44,490 nt of DNA from assembly GCA_019634045.1 (NCBI GenBank), contig JAHQWA010000281.1, positions 1 to 44,490 of the forward strand. Direction: 5' to 3'. A model generated the notes under the pieces. That model did no database searches. It was not told the DNA's origin and saw only the letters and a program-made list of their open reading frames with translations. Below are positions 8,306-24,719 of this stretch, one piece after another; the stretch's first letter is position 1, and the number at the start of each line of letters is the position of its first letter. Made by a program: the position numbers and the translations under genes. Source of the DNA: Saprospiraceae bacterium (GTDB taxonomy: Bacteria; Bacteroidota; Bacteroidia; Chitinophagales; Saprospiraceae).

Positions 8306-8833
8306 TTGCTGAAATCTATTTCCATGGCAAAGCCAGATCAAATTTGTGAACAAGCTGTATTCAAGGAATTGTTTTGGGCCTACGCGCGTCCACTACGCAA
8401 TTTCCTCTATTATAAATGCGGAGATCCCGATCTTGCTGAAGATTTAGTGCAGGAGGCTTTTTTACGAATGTGGGCCGCTTGCCAAAAGGTTTCCTATGAA
8501 AAGGCTAAGGCCTTTCTATTCAGGGTGGCGAATAACTTATTCCTAGATGAGATCAAACACCGCAAAGTGGTAGCCAAGTTCAGGTTGAACATTGGTAAGC
8601 CAGTGCAGAACTTTACCCCGCAGGAAGAGTTGGAGGAAAACGAATTCAGGGAGCGACTGGAGGTAGCCATTGCCGAACTTCCAGAAAAGAGCAGGACGGT
8701 TTTTTTACTGAACAGAGTGGAAGGTTTGAAGTATAGGGAGATCGCTCTTTTACTGGATATAAGCGTGAAGGCCGTGGAAAAAAGGATGCATAAAGCCCTG
8801 ATAGAACTAAGAAAATTAAGTGATTTGATTTAG
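8306..8833 (+). CDS. RNA polymerase ECF sigma factor, FecI-like (start may be 8324, MAKPDQ)
   Basis: 175 aa; DLAEDLVQEAFLRMW region 2 and region 4 LPEKSRTVFLLNRVEGLKYREIALLLDISVKAVEKRMHKAL. Confidence 0.94.
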   Translation: MLKSISMAKPDQICEQAVFKELFWAYARPLRNFLYYKCGDPDLAEDLVQEAFLRMWAACQKVSYEKAKAFLFRVANNLFLDEIKHRKVVAKFRLNIGKPVQNFTPQEELEENEFRERLEVAIAELPEKSRTVFLLNRVEGLKYREIALLLDISVKAVEKRMHKALIELRKLSDLI

Positions 8834-8908
8834 GACAGGTAGGGAAAGAGCTAGTATGATCGTTATTAAACCAAAGAGTGAATTTAAAAGGTACTATAAT
8901 CGTAAATC

Positions 8909-9838
8909 ATGTCCAAACCATTCCCAGATGAGACCTTGCTAGCCCGCTGGCTGAATGGCGAATTGAGCCAAAAGGAAGAGGCTGAATTAAAGACGAGAGC
9001 AGACTATGATGACCTGCGTAAGATTGTAGAGGATGCCAAACAACTATCAGTACCAGCTTTCTCCGAAGGAGCGGCTTGGGAAAAACTAGTAGTTGCCAAG
9101 CAATCACAAGGTATGAAGAACAAGGGCAAGAGACGCTTTCTGCGAAGCCTTTGGTGGTCTGCTGCTGCCGCTGTATTGGCATTGGTCGCTATCGGCTATT
9201 GGTGGATGCAACCGGAATCTGCCTTGATTGCTACGCAAATAGGCGAGCAGTTGCAGGGAAGTTTGCCAGATGGATCCACTTATCAACTGAATGCGGTAGG
9301 TACGCTGGATTATGATGAGGTACAATGGAGTGAAAGGCGTGAGGTAGTACTAAATGGAGAAGCATTTTTTCAAGTGGAGAAAGGGAGTGAATTCACCGTA
9401 AGGACGTCGTCGGGAGAGGTGAGCGTCTTGGGCACCAGCTTCAACGTTTGGGCGCGAGGAGATCAATTGGAGGTAGTTTGCTATAGCGGAAAGGTGAGGG
9501 TTATAGGCAGTCAAGAACCTGTGGAAATTGAAGCGGGGCAAAAGACGGTGCTATTGGAGGATGGAAATTTGTCCACCACTAATCTGCAATTGACCCCGAC
9601 ACCAAGCTGGTTTAGAGGATGGACAGATTGTGAAGGCTTACCACTCTCTAGGGTTTTGGAAGAGCTAGAACGGCAGTACCAATTGGAGGTGAAGTGGGAA
9701 AACGAAAGTTATAGAGTGTACCAAGGAGGTTTTCCCAATGACGATTTGGAGCAAGCTCTAAAGTTTATCTGCGATCCGATGGAATTGCAATTCGAGCTTA
9801 GTAGCGATAAAACCAGTGTAAGGATATTCGCAAAATGA
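8909..9838 (+). CDS. FecR family anti-sigma / transmembrane sensor protein
   Basis: 309 aa; single TM; LPDGSTYQLNAVGTLDYDE...REVVLNGEAFFQVEKGSEFTVRTSSGEVSVLGTSFNVWA FecR signature; C-terminal STN-like DUF4974 region. Confidence 0.94.
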   Translation: MSKPFPDETLLARWLNGELSQKEEAELKTRADYDDLRKIVEDAKQLSVPAFSEGAAWEKLVVAKQSQGMKNKGKRRFLRSLWWSAAAAVLALVAIGYWWMQPESALIATQIGEQLQGSLPDGSTYQLNAVGTLDYDEVQWSERREVVLNGEAFFQVEKGSEFTVRTSSGEVSVLGTSFNVWARGDQLEVVCYSGKVRVIGSQEPVEIEAGQKTVLLEDGNLSTTNLQLTPTPSWFRGWTDCEGLPLSRVLEELERQYQLEVKWENESYRVYQGGFPNDDLEQALKFICDPMELQFELSSDKTSVRIFAK

Positions 9839-12504
9839 TAGTGAATGTACGTCATGTTATTTTCCTCCTACTAGGATTTTGGGTCGCGCCAATGTCGGCT
9901 CAAGACGGGCCGAAAATTGCTTTTGATTTTGAGAATATACCGCTAATGCAAGCGTTGGACTTTCTAGAGGAATCCTACGATCTCACCTTTGCTTTCGATC
10001 AAGAATTACTGCAAAGTAAATTAGTGGAAGAAGCAAAATCCGATAATCTTTTCTTGCGGGAGGCCCTGATACAACTCCTCTTACCTCAATCTCTATTTTT
10101 TGAAGTCGTCGGAGGCAAACATGTGCTTATTCGAAGAGCAAAGGCACAAGAAATGAGCCTGTTACCAGCTAAAAAAGAGGCCGTAGTTATTGCCTGCGGA
10201 GCCTTGCGGGATAGCCTTAGCGGCCTGCCACTCATTTCTGCCAATGTATGGCTGAAAGGGACACAAAGAGGAGCGTATAGCAATGACCTCGGGGCGTTTT
10301 CCATAAAAGGGCCTTTCACCTCCAACGATAGCTTGATGTTTAGTTACGTTGGATATCAAGCGCGATCGCTTCCTTTGCGTCAGTTTTTAGGTAAGGAATG
10401 CCCCGCGGTGGATCTTCCTCCACAAGAATTTGCTTTTGAACAGATCTTAATTAAAGATAAGGCCATTACCTTTCTGTCGGGTGCCGGTAGAGGAGATGGA
10501 CTGGAGATGGATGTTGATCAGATGGGAGTGATCCCTGGTTGGGGTGAGCGGGATGTCTTGCGCATGGCTCAGCTATTACCTGGAATTAGCACGACGGATG
10601 AGTCTGCCAGCAACCTAAATATCAGAGGAGGAACGCCGGATCAAAACCTCATTTTGTGGGATGGGATTCCGGTGTATCACACAGGCCATTTTTTTGGCAT
10701 GTTTTCCGCCTTTAACTCCACTATCGTAGATGAAATGGCCGTCTATCGAGGAGATTTTAGCGCAGAATATGGAGGTAGAGTTTCCGGTGTCCTAGATATT
10801 ACCACTTCTCCTTTGTTATTGGACACAGTGGAAGTAGGGATTGGTGTAAATCTGATTAGCAGCAATGCATACGTGAAAGTTCCGCTACAGAAAGGGCGTT
10901 CTGCTCTGATGGTGGCGGGCCGGCGATCCATTTCAGACTTGTTTGAAAGTAAGATTTATCAAAATCTTTTTAATCAGGTAGCGGGAAGGGGAAGTATAAA
11001 AGAAGAGTTTGAACCTGCTCAGAAACAATTCACGGATTTAGAATTATCGCCAAAATTCTATTTTTCAGACTTTAATTTTAAGTGGGTAACTCGTAATGAA
11101 AATGGAGGGGAAGGGCGGATCAGCTTCTATCAGGGGGAAGATGCACTAGATTATGGAATCCTGTTTGATCGTCCCAATTTTTACCTCAATACGCTGTATG
11201 AGGTAGACCTCTTGAATTGGGGCTTGAGTGCTCAATGGAATCAACGTTGGAATGACCGTTGGAAATCGGATTTTATGTTCGTTTTCACAGGGTTTTCTAC
11301 GGCCTTCTCTACTCGAAATAGATTAAATCCTGAACAAGTTAGGCTGCAAGTCATCCAGAGTAATAATATCAGTGAGCAACGTATAGAATGGAATAATACG
11401 TACAATATTGATCAACATCAGCGCCTGAATTTTGGGTATCAGGGGGTATTGAATGAAGTCGACTTGAATATTAGTATGGAGTCGCCGATCAATGCTGAAT
11501 TTCGGCAAGAGCGGATTTCCTTCAAGGGGACCACACAGACCTTATATTTAGATTATGATTATACCATTCCTGAGAAACTACATTTGGATTGGGGGCTTCG
11601 ATATGGGACCTTTGATGGGGGCTATACGGGTAATTGGGAGCCGCGCTTTAGCTTATCTTATTATGTCCACCCGGAGTTGGAAATAAAGTCTAGTATCGGG
11701 CGCTATGTTCAGGTAGTCAATCAAGTATTTCTAAATAATAATCTTGGGATAGGGGAGCGATTCTGGATCATGGCTGATAGTTCGAAACACATCCCCGCGG
11801 TCACATCGGCACAGTTTACATTAGGTACGCGTTGGAAAAGCCAGGGGTGGTTGCTAGATGTTGATTTTTATAAAAAATGGATCACCGGACTTGTGTCTTT
11901 GAGCCTGGATTTTGATGCTGATTGGGAAAATCCGTACAGTGGGGGAGAAGCTAGAGTTTTGGGAATGGATTTGCTGCTGAAAAAGAGTTGGCAAAACTAT
12001 GATAGCTGGCTAGCCTATACATTAGGCCGTACGAAGTATAAATTTGATAGGATTAATCGAAATGAGGCTTTCCCCAGCATATATGACCGACTGCATAATT
12101 TAAAATGGACTCATCAGCTACAATTTGGGAATTGGGATTTTGCCGTAGCTTGGTACTATGGTAGCGGACTACCTTACACCCAAGCCAAGAGAGGCCGGTT
12201 CGTCCCGGATGATGAGGCAGAGAATGGGTTTAAGGCGCAGATTGAATATGGTGAGATTAACGCACACCGCTTGCAGGACTACCAAAGAGTGGATTTTAGT
12301 GGGGCCTATAATTTTACCGATCGAAGAAAACTGCGGGGAAAGATCGGCTGGTCCATTTTTAATGTCTTGGATCGCCTAAACTTCTATAGTAGGACCTACT
12401 TCCTTCATCCAGAGAATGAAGATTATACTCGTCCTGTTCTGGTGGCTTATGATCGGAGCCTTCTTGGTTTTACACCTAACTTATTTTTAGAATTGCGTTG
12501 GTGA
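9835..12504 (+). CDS. TonB-dependent receptor with N-terminal STN (signalling) and carboxypeptidase-regulatory-like domains
   Basis: 889 aa; signal peptide, STN-like domain, SANVWLKGTQRGAYSNDLGAFSI, plug NLNIRGGTPDQNLILWDGIPVY, terminal aromatic LRW; ATGA overlap with the FecR stop. Confidence 0.93.
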   Translation: MIVNVRHVIFLLLGFWVAPMSAQDGPKIAFDFENIPLMQALDFLEESYDLTFAFDQELLQSKLVEEAKSDNLFLREALIQLLLPQSLFFEVVGGKHVLIRRAKAQEMSLLPAKKEAVVIACGALRDSLSGLPLISANVWLKGTQRGAYSNDLGAFSIKGPFTSNDSLMFSYVGYQARSLPLRQFLGKECPAVDLPPQEFAFEQILIKDKAITFLSGAGRGDGLEMDVDQMGVIPGWGERDVLRMAQLLPGISTTDESASNLNIRGGTPDQNLILWDGIPVYHTGHFFGMFSAFNSTIVDEMAVYRGDFSAEYGGRVSGVLDITTSPLLLDTVEVGIGVNLISSNAYVKVPLQKGRSALMVAGRRSISDLFESKIYQNLFNQVAGRGSIKEEFEPAQKQFTDLELSPKFYFSDFNFKWVTRNENGGEGRISFYQGEDALDYGILFDRPNFYLNTLYEVDLLNWGLSAQWNQRWNDRWKSDFMFVFTGFSTAFSTRNRLNPEQVRLQVIQSNNISEQRIEWNNTYNIDQHQRLNFGYQGVLNEVDLNISMESPINAEFRQERISFKGTTQTLYLDYDYTIPEKLHLDWGLRYGTFDGGYTGNWEPRFSLSYYVHPELEIKSSIGRYVQVVNQVFLNNNLGIGERFWIMADSSKHIPAVTSAQFTLGTRWKSQGWLLDVDFYKKWITGLVSLSLDFDADWENPYSGGEARVLGMDLLLKKSWQNYDSWLAYTLGRTKYKFDRINRNEAFPSIYDRLHNLKWTHQLQFGNWDFAVAWYYGSGLPYTQAKRGRFVPDDEAENGFKAQIEYGEINAHRLQDYQRVDFSGAYNFTDRRKLRGKIGWSIFNVLDRLNFYSRTYFLHPENEDYTRPVLVAYDRSLLGFTPNLFLELRW

Positions 12505-12692
12505 CAGCAGCTTAATGCTATATGTTTGAAATAGCGCTTTACCCCTGATCTACTAGAATTCCAGACCAGAACTTCCAGGTTTCCTACTCTTTTAGTAATT
12601 TACGACTGAAATCAATAGATTTCATCACCACTGATATTCTGAAGGATGCAAGTCATTTCCAGGCTTGCACAACAAAGACAAAATTTTGTCTA

Positions 12693-12726
12693 GGGTAAAG
12701 GAGTAATTATTCCTTTGCCCTTTTTT
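12693..12726 (+). terminator. Rho-independent terminator downstream of the TonB receptor
   Basis: gggtaaagga-gtaattat-tcctttgccc then tttttt. Confidence 0.75.
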
Positions 12727-12767
12727 ATTCTACTTTGCGGCTTCAGTAAAGACGTGAAGCTATGGTG

Positions 12768-12832: not shown

Positions 12833-15103
12833 ATGTATAAATACCTTCTTGGTGGTCTCTTTTTGTTGGGGACACTTTATGCCTGTCAATCGACCGACTC
12901 TTCCCGGGCAGATGCCCAATTAGACCCCGCCATTGAAAAAAGTATCGATTCTCTCCTGCGGCTGATGACTTTAGAAGAGAAAATTGGGCAGATGAACCAA
13001 TATCGAGGTTCCAGGGATTTCGCTAGCCCAAATCCTGGGAGAGAAACGCTAATGATACTTGAAGCTATAAAGAATGGATCGGTAGGATCCCTCTTAAATG
13101 TCAGTGGAGCGAACGTGACTAGGAATGTTCAAGAAATAGCAGTAAACCAGAGCCGTTTGGGGATTCCGCTTCTTTTCGGTTATGAAGTGATTCATGGATA
13201 TAAGACGATGTTTCCTATGCCTTTGGCACAGGCAGCCAGTTGGGATTTGGAAGCCATCGAGCTTTCTTCCAGGATAGGGGCGATTGAAGCCGCTTCTGCG
13301 GGCGTCCATTGGGCATTGGGGGCTACCGTGGATATATTCCGAGATGCACGAATGGGGCAAGTAGTGGAAAGTGCGGGAGAAGATCCATATCTATCAAGTT
13401 TGATCGCTGTTGCGAGGGTGAAAGGCTTACAAGGGCAGGACTTAAGAGCAAAAAATACGATTGCTGCAGCGATTAAGCATTTGCCCGAAATTAGCTATAC
13501 ACAGGCGGGCCAAAACAATAGCCAGGTAGCGGTCAATGAACAGGTTTTGGAAAATATAATTTGGCCTCCCCTACAAGGGGCTGTGGCGGCTGGCGCTGTG
13601 GCGTTAATGTCTCATCCAGTAAAGCTTATTGGGAAAAGCGCACAGGAGAGTGTTCAGGAGCAAGAAAAAGTACTTAGGGACCGCCTAGGGTTTAAGGGGA
13701 TAAACTTGTCGGGGCCAAACATGATTGCGGGATGGGTGCGCAAAGGAGTGGGTAAGGATCGACAGCAAGCTACTGAAATAGCAGTCAATGCAGGCTATGA
13801 TGTGGATATGGGAGCTGCCTTCGTGAATGAAGTTGCAAGCTTGGTACGAGAGGGGACAGTCTCTAAAAAGAAGGTGGATCAGGCAGTCAGAAGGGTTTTA
13901 AGACTGAAGTTCCAATTGGGTTTATTTGATGATCCCTACCGTTATAGCAATCCAGCTGCCGAAAAACAAGATTTAATGCATCGAGATCACATAGCGGCTG
14001 CGCATGAAATAGCCAAGAAGTCGATTGTTCTTTTGAAGAACGAAGGGGGGCTACTTCCCTTATCAAAGGAAACAAGAACCATAGCTGTGATTGGCCCAAT
14101 GGCCCGTGATCGGGATACACCACTCGGAAGTTTGAGGGCGAGGGCTAGGACAAACTCTGGAGTTCCCCTGTTAAATGGACTTAGAGAAACCGTAGGTTCA
14201 AATACTCGCTTGCTGTATGCCCAAGGATGCCGACTAACGGTAGGTAAGCGCGGACCAAATAGCGAGCTAACCTTCAATGAATCGGATCGATCCGGCTTTC
14301 CCGAAGCAGTAGCAGCGGCAAAACAGGCAGATGTGGTCGTCCTTGCATTAGGGGAAGATTGTTGGCAGACGGGCAAAGCGGCTGTGCAGGAGAATATTGG
14401 GTTGGCGGGATTGCAGGAGGAGTTACTTCAAGCCGTTTATGAAGCGAACAAAAATATTGTACTCGTATTGATGAACGGTAGACCGTTGACTATTAATTGG
14501 GCCGCTGATCATATTCCTGCTATTGTAGAAGCTTGGCAATTGGGGCATATGTCGGGGATGGCGATTGCAGATGTCTTGTGGGGAGATTACAATCCTTCAG
14601 GGAAACTACCGATATCTTTCCCAAGTGATGTGGCGCAATGCCCCATTTATTACAATCATCAGGAAGGTGATCGACAGTTTTTCAAAACAGATCAAGTAGT
14701 GAGTGGAGAAGCAAGGTTTCCATTTGGGTTTGGGTTAAGTTATACCCAATTCGAATACGCTAAGCCGATGCTGAGTAGTCCAACGATGGGAATGAGCGAT
14801 ACGCTCCAGCTCTCTATTAGCCTTACTAACGTAGGAGAGCGGGAAGGCGCGGAAGTGGTGCAGCTATATCTTCAGGATAAGGTGAGCAGTATCGCAAGAC
14901 CCGTTAAGGAATTGAAGGGGTTTCGAAGAATCAAGTTGGCCCCAGGGACAACGGAAGTGGTGCGATTTTCTATTACTGCAAAGGACCTAGGGTTTTATGG
15001 AGCTAGTAAGAGCTGGGAGGCTGAGTCAGGGGCTTTTAGCCTTTACATTGGCACGAATTCTCGTGATGTTCAGGAGGCTACATTTGAGTTAATCGCAGAA
15101 TAG
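12833..15103 (+). CDS. Glycoside hydrolase family 3-like (BglX-type architecture) lipoprotein, active-site residues substituted
   Basis: 756 aa; lipobox-like TLYAC; VIHGYKTMFPMPLAQAASWD, AGEDPYLSS, GFKGINLSG, LKFQLGLFDDPYRY, LLKNEGGLLPLS, NGRPLTINW, PSGKLPISFP, FPFGFGLSYT; C-terminal FnIII-like domain. Confidence 0.9.
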   Translation: MYKYLLGGLFLLGTLYACQSTDSSRADAQLDPAIEKSIDSLLRLMTLEEKIGQMNQYRGSRDFASPNPGRETLMILEAIKNGSVGSLLNVSGANVTRNVQEIAVNQSRLGIPLLFGYEVIHGYKTMFPMPLAQAASWDLEAIELSSRIGAIEAASAGVHWALGATVDIFRDARMGQVVESAGEDPYLSSLIAVARVKGLQGQDLRAKNTIAAAIKHLPEISYTQAGQNNSQVAVNEQVLENIIWPPLQGAVAAGAVALMSHPVKLIGKSAQESVQEQEKVLRDRLGFKGINLSGPNMIAGWVRKGVGKDRQQATEIAVNAGYDVDMGAAFVNEVASLVREGTVSKKKVDQAVRRVLRLKFQLGLFDDPYRYSNPAAEKQDLMHRDHIAAAHEIAKKSIVLLKNEGGLLPLSKETRTIAVIGPMARDRDTPLGSLRARARTNSGVPLLNGLRETVGSNTRLLYAQGCRLTVGKRGPNSELTFNESDRSGFPEAVAAAKQADVVVLALGEDCWQTGKAAVQENIGLAGLQEELLQAVYEANKNIVLVLMNGRPLTINWAADHIPAIVEAWQLGHMSGMAIADVLWGDYNPSGKLPISFPSDVAQCPIYYNHQEGDRQFFKTDQVVSGEARFPFGFGLSYTQFEYAKPMLSSPTMGMSDTLQLSISLTNVGEREGAEVVQLYLQDKVSSIARPVKELKGFRRIKLAPGTTEVVRFSITAKDLGFYGASKSWEAESGAFSLYIGTNSRDVQEATFELIAE

Positions 15104-22439: not shown

Positions 22440-24719
22440 ATGTGTAGAAAAAACCTCATGAATTCAAGTGCTGAGATAGTGTTACCCAATGCTCTTGGCG
22501 CTAGCTCCAACAACAAGTTTTTCGTCAAACTTAGGCCTGTATTCTTGACATTGCTTTCTCTGCTAGCGCTCTTGCTTATTGACAATCCGCTTTCAGCGCA
22601 AAACAGCTTGCGAGAATTGGCGGCTCCCAAGAAGGTTTATATTGGGAATCTCATTAGTAACGAGCATCTTGATGATCCTGAAAACTTCAGAAATGGCTTG
22701 GCCGACCCCCACTTAAGGCAAGAGTATAACGCTGTGGTATTAGAGAACTACATGAAAATGAGCTTCGTGCTTCCTGCCGATGAACCTGCGGATATTCACA
22801 ACCTCACGGTAGAACAGCTTCGAGCAACACTCACGGCAGATAAAATTGAAGCATTTTTAAGTAATGACGACTGGGCAGATCTACGTAAGCGTGGTCACGC
22901 GATGATTTGGTTCAATCAAGCACCGGATTGGCTCAAGCTGGTAGCTCCCACTTGGACGGGACAACAAGTATTTGATTTTACTAGGAAGTATATTCTGGCT
23001 TTAGGTCAAATCTGTGGTGATCGAGTCGATGAATGGGATGTAATTAACGAAGCCATATCCGATGATGCGCCTGATGGACAACGCATATGGAGAAGAGGTA
23101 CCTGGTACCGTAGAGCCAATGATGGCAGTATGACCGATTGGGGAGAGGCCACCTACGAAAATTACATCAAAATGATTTTTGTTTGGGCAAGGGAAGCACA
23201 ACCTCAGGCCCGCCTCCATATCAATGATTACGGCATTGAGACCTTTAATAACTCCGTGGCTTCGAAGAATCGCTTTATGAGAGATAAAGCTAAAGCACTG
23301 AAAGACTGCGGCGCCCCCATTGATGGGGTAGGCTTTCAATCCCACTTGATACTTTCAGATATGGTAAGTTCCACTGGCGTCCTTAATACTGATTTTATTG
23401 CATCGATAGAGGAGTCCATACAGGATTTGGCTTCAGCGGGACTTGAAGTGGCCATTACAGAGTTAGACATCCGAGTTTGTAATAATGATCGTGACGAGGC
23501 TTTTCAGGAAGTGGCATTTCAGGCTTATTGCGAGATGGCTTTTTCTCAACCCAATTGCCACGAAGTTTTGATATGGGGGCTTAGGGATGAGGACAATTGG
23601 ATCACCTTGAGAGATGACCAATTTTTTGCTGGCTGTGAAGATGCAGCCATAGTGGAAGGAGACAATTACACCCCCAAGCCTGCCTATGACGGTGTTGCCA
23701 GCGCCATTATGGCATTGCCAGATCAGGAAGAATTTGGTTTTTCTCCATTAGTTCCAGGAAATGGCGCTCCCGCGAATTGCGGAGGGGAAGCTAGTCTTGA
23801 TCCTGCCATTTTGTTTGTCAATGGTCCTACCGCTGTCTCAGCAGGCGATCAAGTGACGGTTGCCGTCAATTACATAGCGACTGACAATCAGGATATCGTT
23901 GTGTGGTTCCAGTTAAATGAGGCCCCTTTCACTGTGTACACTCAGGTTGTTACGGATGTAAGTTCAGGTGCGGGTACAATTGATGTGACTGTAGATATTC
24001 CAATGAATGTACCTACTGGTACTTTTCAATATCGCTACCTTGCCTTTATAGCACCAGACGGACAGGGAGTGGACAACAGTTTCTCCGATTTCATCCAATT
24101 CCAGGTCACTGTATTAGGGGAGGACAGTCAATTGATCATTTCCAGCCTGGGGCCAGCAAGTGTTAGTCCAGGAGATACGGCGGAGATAAATGTCTCTTAT
24201 AGTGCCATTGAGGGACAGGAGATTGTGGTGTGGTTTCAGCTAGATCAGTCTCCCTTTACTACCTATCAGGAGTTTCGGCAAACTGCCATGCCAGGTCAAA
24301 ATGACATCATTGCAAAACTATACATACCACAAGATGTGCCTATCGCTGACGATGCTTATCAATATCAAACCATACTCGTACCAACAGGTGGCGGGTGGCC
24401 GGAAAGGATAGCCAATATCAGTCAAGGTGATATAGATGTAGTAGTGGTTTCCAGTGTAGCTCAGGGCGGAGCAAATAATCTCAATTTTAGGGTATATCCT
24501 AATCCAACAGCCGGCTTATTTAATGTTGAAATTCCGGCTAGCAGTGATGCTGCGGAACTCACACTCTACTCTGCTTTAGGAGAAGTAGTACATCAGCAGC
24601 TCACTCCTTCAGGTAGGAGTGAGCTTAGCTTACACCTCCATTCGATTCCTCCTGGCATATACTGGCTATCTGTACAACAGGGCACTTCTCAGGGGGTGGT
24701 AAAGCTGCTCAAGCAGTAA
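22440..24719 (+). CDS. GH10 endo-1,4-beta-xylanase with two tandem Ig-like domains and T9SS type A sorting domain
   Basis: 759 aa; WDVINEAISDD (acid/base), ITELDIRV (nucleophile); two ~108-aa repeats containing IVVWFQL; C-terminal FRVYPNPTAGLFNVEI...GIYWLSV...VVKLLKQ. True start may be internal (e.g. 22458). Confidence 0.94.
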   Translation: MCRKNLMNSSAEIVLPNALGASSNNKFFVKLRPVFLTLLSLLALLLIDNPLSAQNSLRELAAPKKVYIGNLISNEHLDDPENFRNGLADPHLRQEYNAVVLENYMKMSFVLPADEPADIHNLTVEQLRATLTADKIEAFLSNDDWADLRKRGHAMIWFNQAPDWLKLVAPTWTGQQVFDFTRKYILALGQICGDRVDEWDVINEAISDDAPDGQRIWRRGTWYRRANDGSMTDWGEATYENYIKMIFVWAREAQPQARLHINDYGIETFNNSVASKNRFMRDKAKALKDCGAPIDGVGFQSHLILSDMVSSTGVLNTDFIASIEESIQDLASAGLEVAITELDIRVCNNDRDEAFQEVAFQAYCEMAFSQPNCHEVLIWGLRDEDNWITLRDDQFFAGCEDAAIVEGDNYTPKPAYDGVASAIMALPDQEEFGFSPLVPGNGAPANCGGEASLDPAILFVNGPTAVSAGDQVTVAVNYIATDNQDIVVWFQLNEAPFTVYTQVVTDVSSGAGTIDVTVDIPMNVPTGTFQYRYLAFIAPDGQGVDNSFSDFIQFQVTVLGEDSQLIISSLGPASVSPGDTAEINVSYSAIEGQEIVVWFQLDQSPFTTYQEFRQTAMPGQNDIIAKLYIPQDVPIADDAYQYQTILVPTGGGWPERIANISQGDIDVVVVSSVAQGGANNLNFRVYPNPTAGLFNVEIPASSDAAELTLYSALGEVVHQQLTPSGRSELSLHLHSIPPGIYWLSVQQGTSQGVVKLLKQ

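Follow-up and report, generated by a model that had tools for sequence, protein, structure and literature searches.

A probable GH3-family pseudoenzyme lipoprotein retained in three Saprospiraceae species of one genus

Pseudoglycosidases, in which a hydrolase fold outlasts catalysis, are a known kind of protein. The closest working analogy for a change from enzyme to binder is BACOVA_03431 of Bacteroides ovatus, an inactive GH10 surface lipoprotein that binds xylan (PMC4491172). Other families include YKL-39 (GH18), klotho (GH1) and CyRPA (GH33) (PMC7828330). For GH3, we found no pseudoenzyme in the searchable literature, and the type is apparently undescribed in that family. What catalysis requires in GH3 is illustrated by Lin1840, in which subsite −1 consists of Asp91, Arg149, Lys191, His192, Asp270 and Glu473; the D270A and E473A variants have undetectable activity, and D270A can still bind disaccharides (PMC4757417). 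Close GH3 relatives form dimers, with the partner subunit supplying the subsite +1 loop (PMC4757417).

The protein described here resembles BACOVA_03431 as a Bacteroidota lipoprotein from a hydrolase family whose nucleophile is gone. BACOVA_03431 differs in belonging to GH10, in lying in a xylan locus with SusCD and in having measured binding, whereas in the present protein the whole of subsite −1 is altered. As in YKL-39, klotho and CyRPA, the hydrolase fold has been kept. Those proteins have a binding role, belong to other families and are mostly eukaryotic, and several of them keep the sugar-binding cleft that is largely gone here.

Fold and active site of the lipoprotein

The window, the whole 44,490-nucleotide stretch analysed, comes from a genus represented in our collection by four genomes: this one (G000), G001, G002 and G003. 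The gene and its domains are as follows.

12833..15103, + strand: GH3-fold lipoprotein of 756 aa, probable pseudoenzyme (Pfam; solved relatives 3u4a/3u48, 5tf0 and 5xxl; AlphaFold model)
12833..12886, + strand: signal peptide with lipobox LYA-C18 (from the sequence)
12968..13906, + strand: GH3_N (barrel) domain, residues 46-358 (Pfam PF00933, 3.2e-40)
14024..14743, + strand: GH3_C domain, residues 398-637 (Pfam PF01915, 9.6e-53)
14852..15061, + strand: Fn3-like domain, residues 674-743, with 0 of 15 invariant columns altered (Pfam PF14310)

The open reading frame, its coordinates and all motifs quoted in a first-pass annotation are present in the sequence. The three Pfam domains span nearly the whole protein and, together with a Foldseek TM of 0.89 to 3u48, place it in the GH3 family by sequence and fold. 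It shares the GH3_N–GH3_C–Fn3 order, the fold and most structural motifs with BglX-type GH3s (E. coli BglX, P. aeruginosa BglX 6r5i, JMB19063 3u4a, 5xxl and L. innocua Lin1840), at 40% identity to 3u48. Its nearest relatives of known structure, JMB19063, B. intestinalis 5tf0 and B. thetaiotaomicron 5xxl, are all active GH3 beta-glucosidases. BglX is also the top NCBIfam model (NF011678 equivalog), although the score of 607.7 bits falls under its cut-off of 666. A similar lipobox, LVLSC, occurs in the intact G003 orthologue, so the lipobox is no novelty of the altered form. Reading the lipoprotein tail by eye, we saw no clear surface-export signal, and a periplasmic location is therefore possible.

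An AlphaFold model built from a 24-sequence alignment had a mean pLDDT of 81.4 and a pTM of 0.86, and its best PDB matches were 3u48 and 3u4a (TM 0.88-0.89), which predicts that the GH3 fold is kept in the altered form. Low-confidence loops in the model included pocket segments 168-182, 218-231, 514-523 and 603-623. We considered these as a sign of disorder and dropped the idea, because an intact homologue (L020), modelled as a control with the same alignment rows, also scored poorly in three of the four equivalent loops; the low scores are thus no evidence of disorder in the altered form.

The following active-site positions were compared with those of active enzymes.

13184..13186, + strand: subsite −1 Asp replaced by E118 (BglX D111); Asp in 103 of 103 intact homologues
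13358..13360, + strand: subsite −1 Arg replaced by Q176 (BglX R169); Arg in 103 of 103 intact homologues
13475..13480, + strand: subsite −1 Lys215-His216, retained here and in G001, EL in G002 (alignment)
13712..13714, + strand: nucleophile position, Asp replaced by Gly294 (BglX D287; alignments)
14375..14377, + strand: acid/base position, Glu replaced by Lys515 (BglX E518; alignments)
14639..14701, + strand: shortened loop 603-623, counterpart of the Lin1840/JMB19063 loop that gives subsite +1 to the neighbouring subunit (alignment; PMC4757417)

We aligned the protein with 3u48/3u4a, 5xxl, E. coli K-12 BglX and 103 inspected intact homologues. The alignment to the solved structures was ungapped around both catalytic positions, which bears out the first-pass reading of the nucleophile Asp as Gly and the acid/base Glu as Lys. 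No shifted Asp or Glu was found near Gly294 or Lys515 in any of these alignments; the pocket positions themselves hold those two residues. We matched the Lin1840 subsite −1 residues to residues 118, 176, 215, 216, 294 and 515. The match of residue 176 to the subsite −1 Arg, made through the conserved RWGR motif and known GH3 sequences, is less secure than the other five.

All six positions are invariant across the 103 intact homologues. They read E, Q, K, H, G, K in this genome, E, Q, K, H, G, S in G001 and E, H, E, L, T, K in G002, so that four, four and six of the six contacts are replaced; G003 has the intact set D, R, K, H, D, E. Unlike BglX-type enzymes, the protein therefore lacks the nucleophile Asp of the SDW motif, the acid/base Glu and two further subsite −1 residues. 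At subsite +1, Trp295 is replaced by P, P and E in the three altered orthologues. To gauge the wider extent of change we used 205 family-invariant columns defined from intact sequences only. In this genome 52 of the 205 were altered (52, 53 and 47 across the altered three). The 103 intact homologues averaged 2.1 altered columns, none had more than 16, and G003 had 9; the difference is not due to chance. The altered columns were distributed as 38 of 102 in GH3_N, 14 of 73 in GH3_C and 0 of 25 in the linker and Fn3. Loss had been proposed to be limited to active-site motifs; it is indeed concentrated in barrel and cleft loops, but it extends past the catalytic motifs proper.

Loss within one genus, and selection since

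The orthologues of G001 (71% identical) and G002 (67% identical) are equally altered, and the loss is therefore not confined to this genome. The three frames are open over 756, 755 and 738 aa. The G001 contig is the same as that of Saprospiraceae isolate DT_111. All three species share the order FecI–FecR–TonB receptor–GH3–S41–Obg, together with a GH10 neighbour. Across them the nucleophile is replaced by G, G and T and the acid/base by K, S and K. The expectation that the same substitutions would be conserved in a clade thus held for the loss, which is common to the three species, and failed for the replacing residues, which differ.

The G003 orthologue (57% identical) has an intact active site; the FecR and TonB receptor genes adjoin it as in the other species, and its contig stops before S41. 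Further Bacteroidota homologues that we inspected, at about 44-52% identity, also have intact active sites. In the GH3 tree the altered orthologues group together as a fully supported clade next to G003. Since the intact gene stands beside the same neighbours, catalysis was lost in place, inside one genus. The simplest history suggested by these sequences is one loss in place after the G003 split, followed by further change in each species. We found no spare active BglX copy in this genome that would point to duplication, the next full-length GH3 being 34% identical.

We made several side observations on these contigs and trees. Between the end of GH3 and S41, G003 carries two extra genes (L130 549-4009), one for a protein of 620 aa and one for a lipoprotein-like product of 315 aa; the other three genomes lack them. 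The G003 contigs C449 and C756 end in known sequencing-adapter peptide translations (GLVGSEMCIRDR and SLIHISEPTRPRLIS), and adapter-like ends (L129 1-60 and 5880-5922; L130 end) truncate its intact GH3. The GH3 tree pairs G000 with G001 (100) and the TonB receptor tree pairs G001 with G002 (83), a conflict for which exchange at the locus or a short internal branch is a possible explanation.

We found that the GH3 gene is under purifying selection and evolves faster than its neighbours. For GH3, dN was 0.185 and omega 0.068 between G000 and G001, and dN was 0.244 and omega 0.093 between G000 and G002; these omega values are approximate because dS (~1.7-2.7) is near saturation, and saturation made the free estimate for the G001–G002 pair unusable. 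Neighbour genes among the three genomes had dN of 0.007-0.121 and omega of 0.005-0.096, and between G000 and G001 the seven neighbour genes had dN of 0.018-0.118 against 0.185 for GH3. Branch lengths since the ancestor of the altered clade were ~0.27-0.38 for GH3 and 0.05-0.11 for the TonB receptor, compared with 0.15 and 0.20 on the G003 branch; GH3 thus outpaces the receptor several-fold within the altered clade and not on the G003 branch.

Constraint was also evident in the pocket. In all settings with usable dS, omega was 0.03-0.10 for the family-invariant columns and 0.09-0.30 for the pocket loops; with dS fixed at 1.8, it was 0.14-0.30 for the pocket loops and 0.09-0.12 for the remainder. 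The pocket loops were picked partly from observed changes, which makes this contrast with the rest somewhat circular; the invariant columns, taken from intact sequences only, are free of that circularity. In pairs of intact sequences (5183 pairs in two identity bands) the pocket loops were nearly always more conserved than the rest (lowest difference −0.02). By contrast, in altered pairs they were less conserved by 0.12-0.23, the reverse of active GH3s. Omega = 1 was rejected for the pocket loops (2dlnL 131.8-255), contrary to what relaxed selection would give. Catalytic residues lost, with fold and purifying selection kept across species, mark a pseudoglycosidase, and we found both. The earlier proposal of a pseudoenzyme under selection stands well on this evidence, given a loss that recurs in a three-species clade, open frames and omega far below 1.

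Upstream genes and a conserved RNA element

The conserved neighbourhood upstream of the GH3 gene comprises three features.

8306..9838, + strand: ECF sigma factor (8306-8833) and FecR anti-sigma factor (8909-9838), conserved neighbours
9835..12504, + strand: TonB-dependent receptor, conserved neighbour, with 88, 87 and 67% identity in G001, G002 and G003
12600..12730, + strand: conserved noncoding element of four hairpins between the TonB receptor and GH3 genes, ending in an intrinsic terminator (12692-12721)

The order of the TonB receptor and GH3 genes is kept in four species, and in all four an intrinsic terminator lies between them, through which some transcripts may still read. The link between the two genes is positional, as read from gene order. 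We rejected the pairing as an old system, because in four of five other genera, those with more than a trace of downstream sequence, the receptor homologues adjoin unrelated genes and no GH3. No gene for SusD, SusE or SusF was seen beside the GH3 gene, and we found no dedicated glycan locus.

Its counterparts in G001 and G002 match the noncoding element at 96-97% identity, at a distance where synonymous sites are close to saturation, and that in G003 matches it at 75%. Among 199 family genomes searched it turned up in no other, apart from a 29-base terminator-like match in one. Its predicted fold has four hairpins (z = −6.2) and includes an invariant single-stranded stretch of 18 nt, ACTGATATTCTGAAGGAT. 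RNAalifold found 1 of 33 pairs doubly changed, which with four sequences is weak covariation. The element had no Rfam match at gathering thresholds, and the best weak hits looked like chance. For the 18-nt stretch, we found no second site in the window with up to 3 mismatches, and no clear candidate among genome-wide matches with up to 2 mismatches. The element may act as a genus-specific small RNA, or it may form the leader of GH3.

Further downstream, we observed that in the G001 copy (L126 2417-4687) of a T9SS-tailed GH10 xylanase (window 22440-24719) an in-frame stop falls past the catalytic domain and before the sorting tail. This GH10 gene had a dS of 0.73-0.84 among the three species, compared with ~1.4-3.1 in neighbouring genes; strong codon bias and between-species exchange are candidate readings.

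Possible roles of the altered protein

Judged from the alignments, GH3 hydrolysis has almost certainly been lost. Open frames, low omega, faster evolution and a pocket that is now the least conserved part make a new role likely, and we consider it very probable that the protein is selected for something other than GH3 activity. On balance, the best overall explanation is that it is kept as a non-hydrolytic, membrane-anchored binding or scaffold protein. In this account a BglX-type GH3 beta-glucosidase lipoprotein came to lie beside the FecI–FecR–TonB receptor locus in the genus ancestor. Comparison among the four species shows that the double-displacement machinery was then lost in the three-species lineage, and that the gene has been kept since under purifying selection, for a full-length, non-hydrolytic protein with a predicted intact fold. 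It may act in membrane-anchored binding or as a scaffold, with GH3_C, Fn3 and the fold constant, and the old cleft may now accept species-specific ligands or partners.

Of the possible roles we put glycan binding forward tentatively, as no more than the likeliest guess, since most residues that would contact the sugar have been lost and their replacements vary by species. The first-pass proposal of glycan binding or sensing for the FecIR/TonB operon is likewise tentative. The same dismantling of the sugar subsite argues against a lectin that retained its ligand. We regard as unlikely the fuller proposal of a receptor-like GH3 lipoprotein with a diversifying cleft that works with the adjacent TonB receptor and is controlled by the intervening genus-specific RNA.

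A less probable reading, although the strongest of the alternatives, is that the protein is a scaffold or inhibitor that pairs with a dimer partner, the TonB receptor or another hydrolase and that its old pocket is merely unused. Conservation of the fold, C-terminal half and Fn3 while the pocket diverges is consistent with this, as are the dimers of close relatives, in which the partner subunit provides the subsite +1 loop (PMC4757417), and the TonB receptor neighbourhood conserved in four species. However, the loop that in such dimers reaches into the partner is shortened here, the sole sizeable GH3 paralogue in the genome is only 34% identical, and pocket-loop omega is well below 1, so the pocket loops are not wholly unused.

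Slow decay of a pseudogene after the need for a beta-glucosidase ended, with residual conservation, would account for a GH3 gene that changes faster than all its neighbours, for the reversed conservation of the pocket and for replacing residues that differ per species. It is very unlikely: no stop or frameshift has arisen in three species despite dS of ~1.7-2.7, not even the pocket loops fit omega = 1, and no invariant column of the linker and Fn3 is altered. We rejected it on the open frames and omega. New catalytic chemistry on the GH3 scaffold with other residues, such as Lys215-His216, is just as doubtful. The constrained pocket loops and the Lys-His pair kept in G000 and G001 would suit it, but the pair is absent in G002, the three altered orthologues have no carboxylate pair in common, and their loop replacements are not shared, so no joint new active site is visible. 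Misalignment of an intact site or assembly error, conceivable in short-read MAGs with adapter-like ends on G003 contigs, is next to negligible and was ruled out by three separate assemblies showing the loss with clean frames and conserved synteny and by the ungapped alignment to solved structures.

The membrane-anchored, non-hydrolytic reading implies that this GH3 protein has probably changed from a cutter to a binder or scaffold. Pseudoglycosidases are known in a few families, and seldom does a sister species carry an intact orthologue at the corresponding locus; here a single locus within a genus displays the state before the loss as well as that after it, so that conversion of an enzyme to a binder would be directly testable. 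In addition, a GH3 annotation, even with Pfam E-values of 1e-40 or better and BglX as the best family, need not mean beta-glucosidase activity when carbohydrate use is predicted from MAGs.
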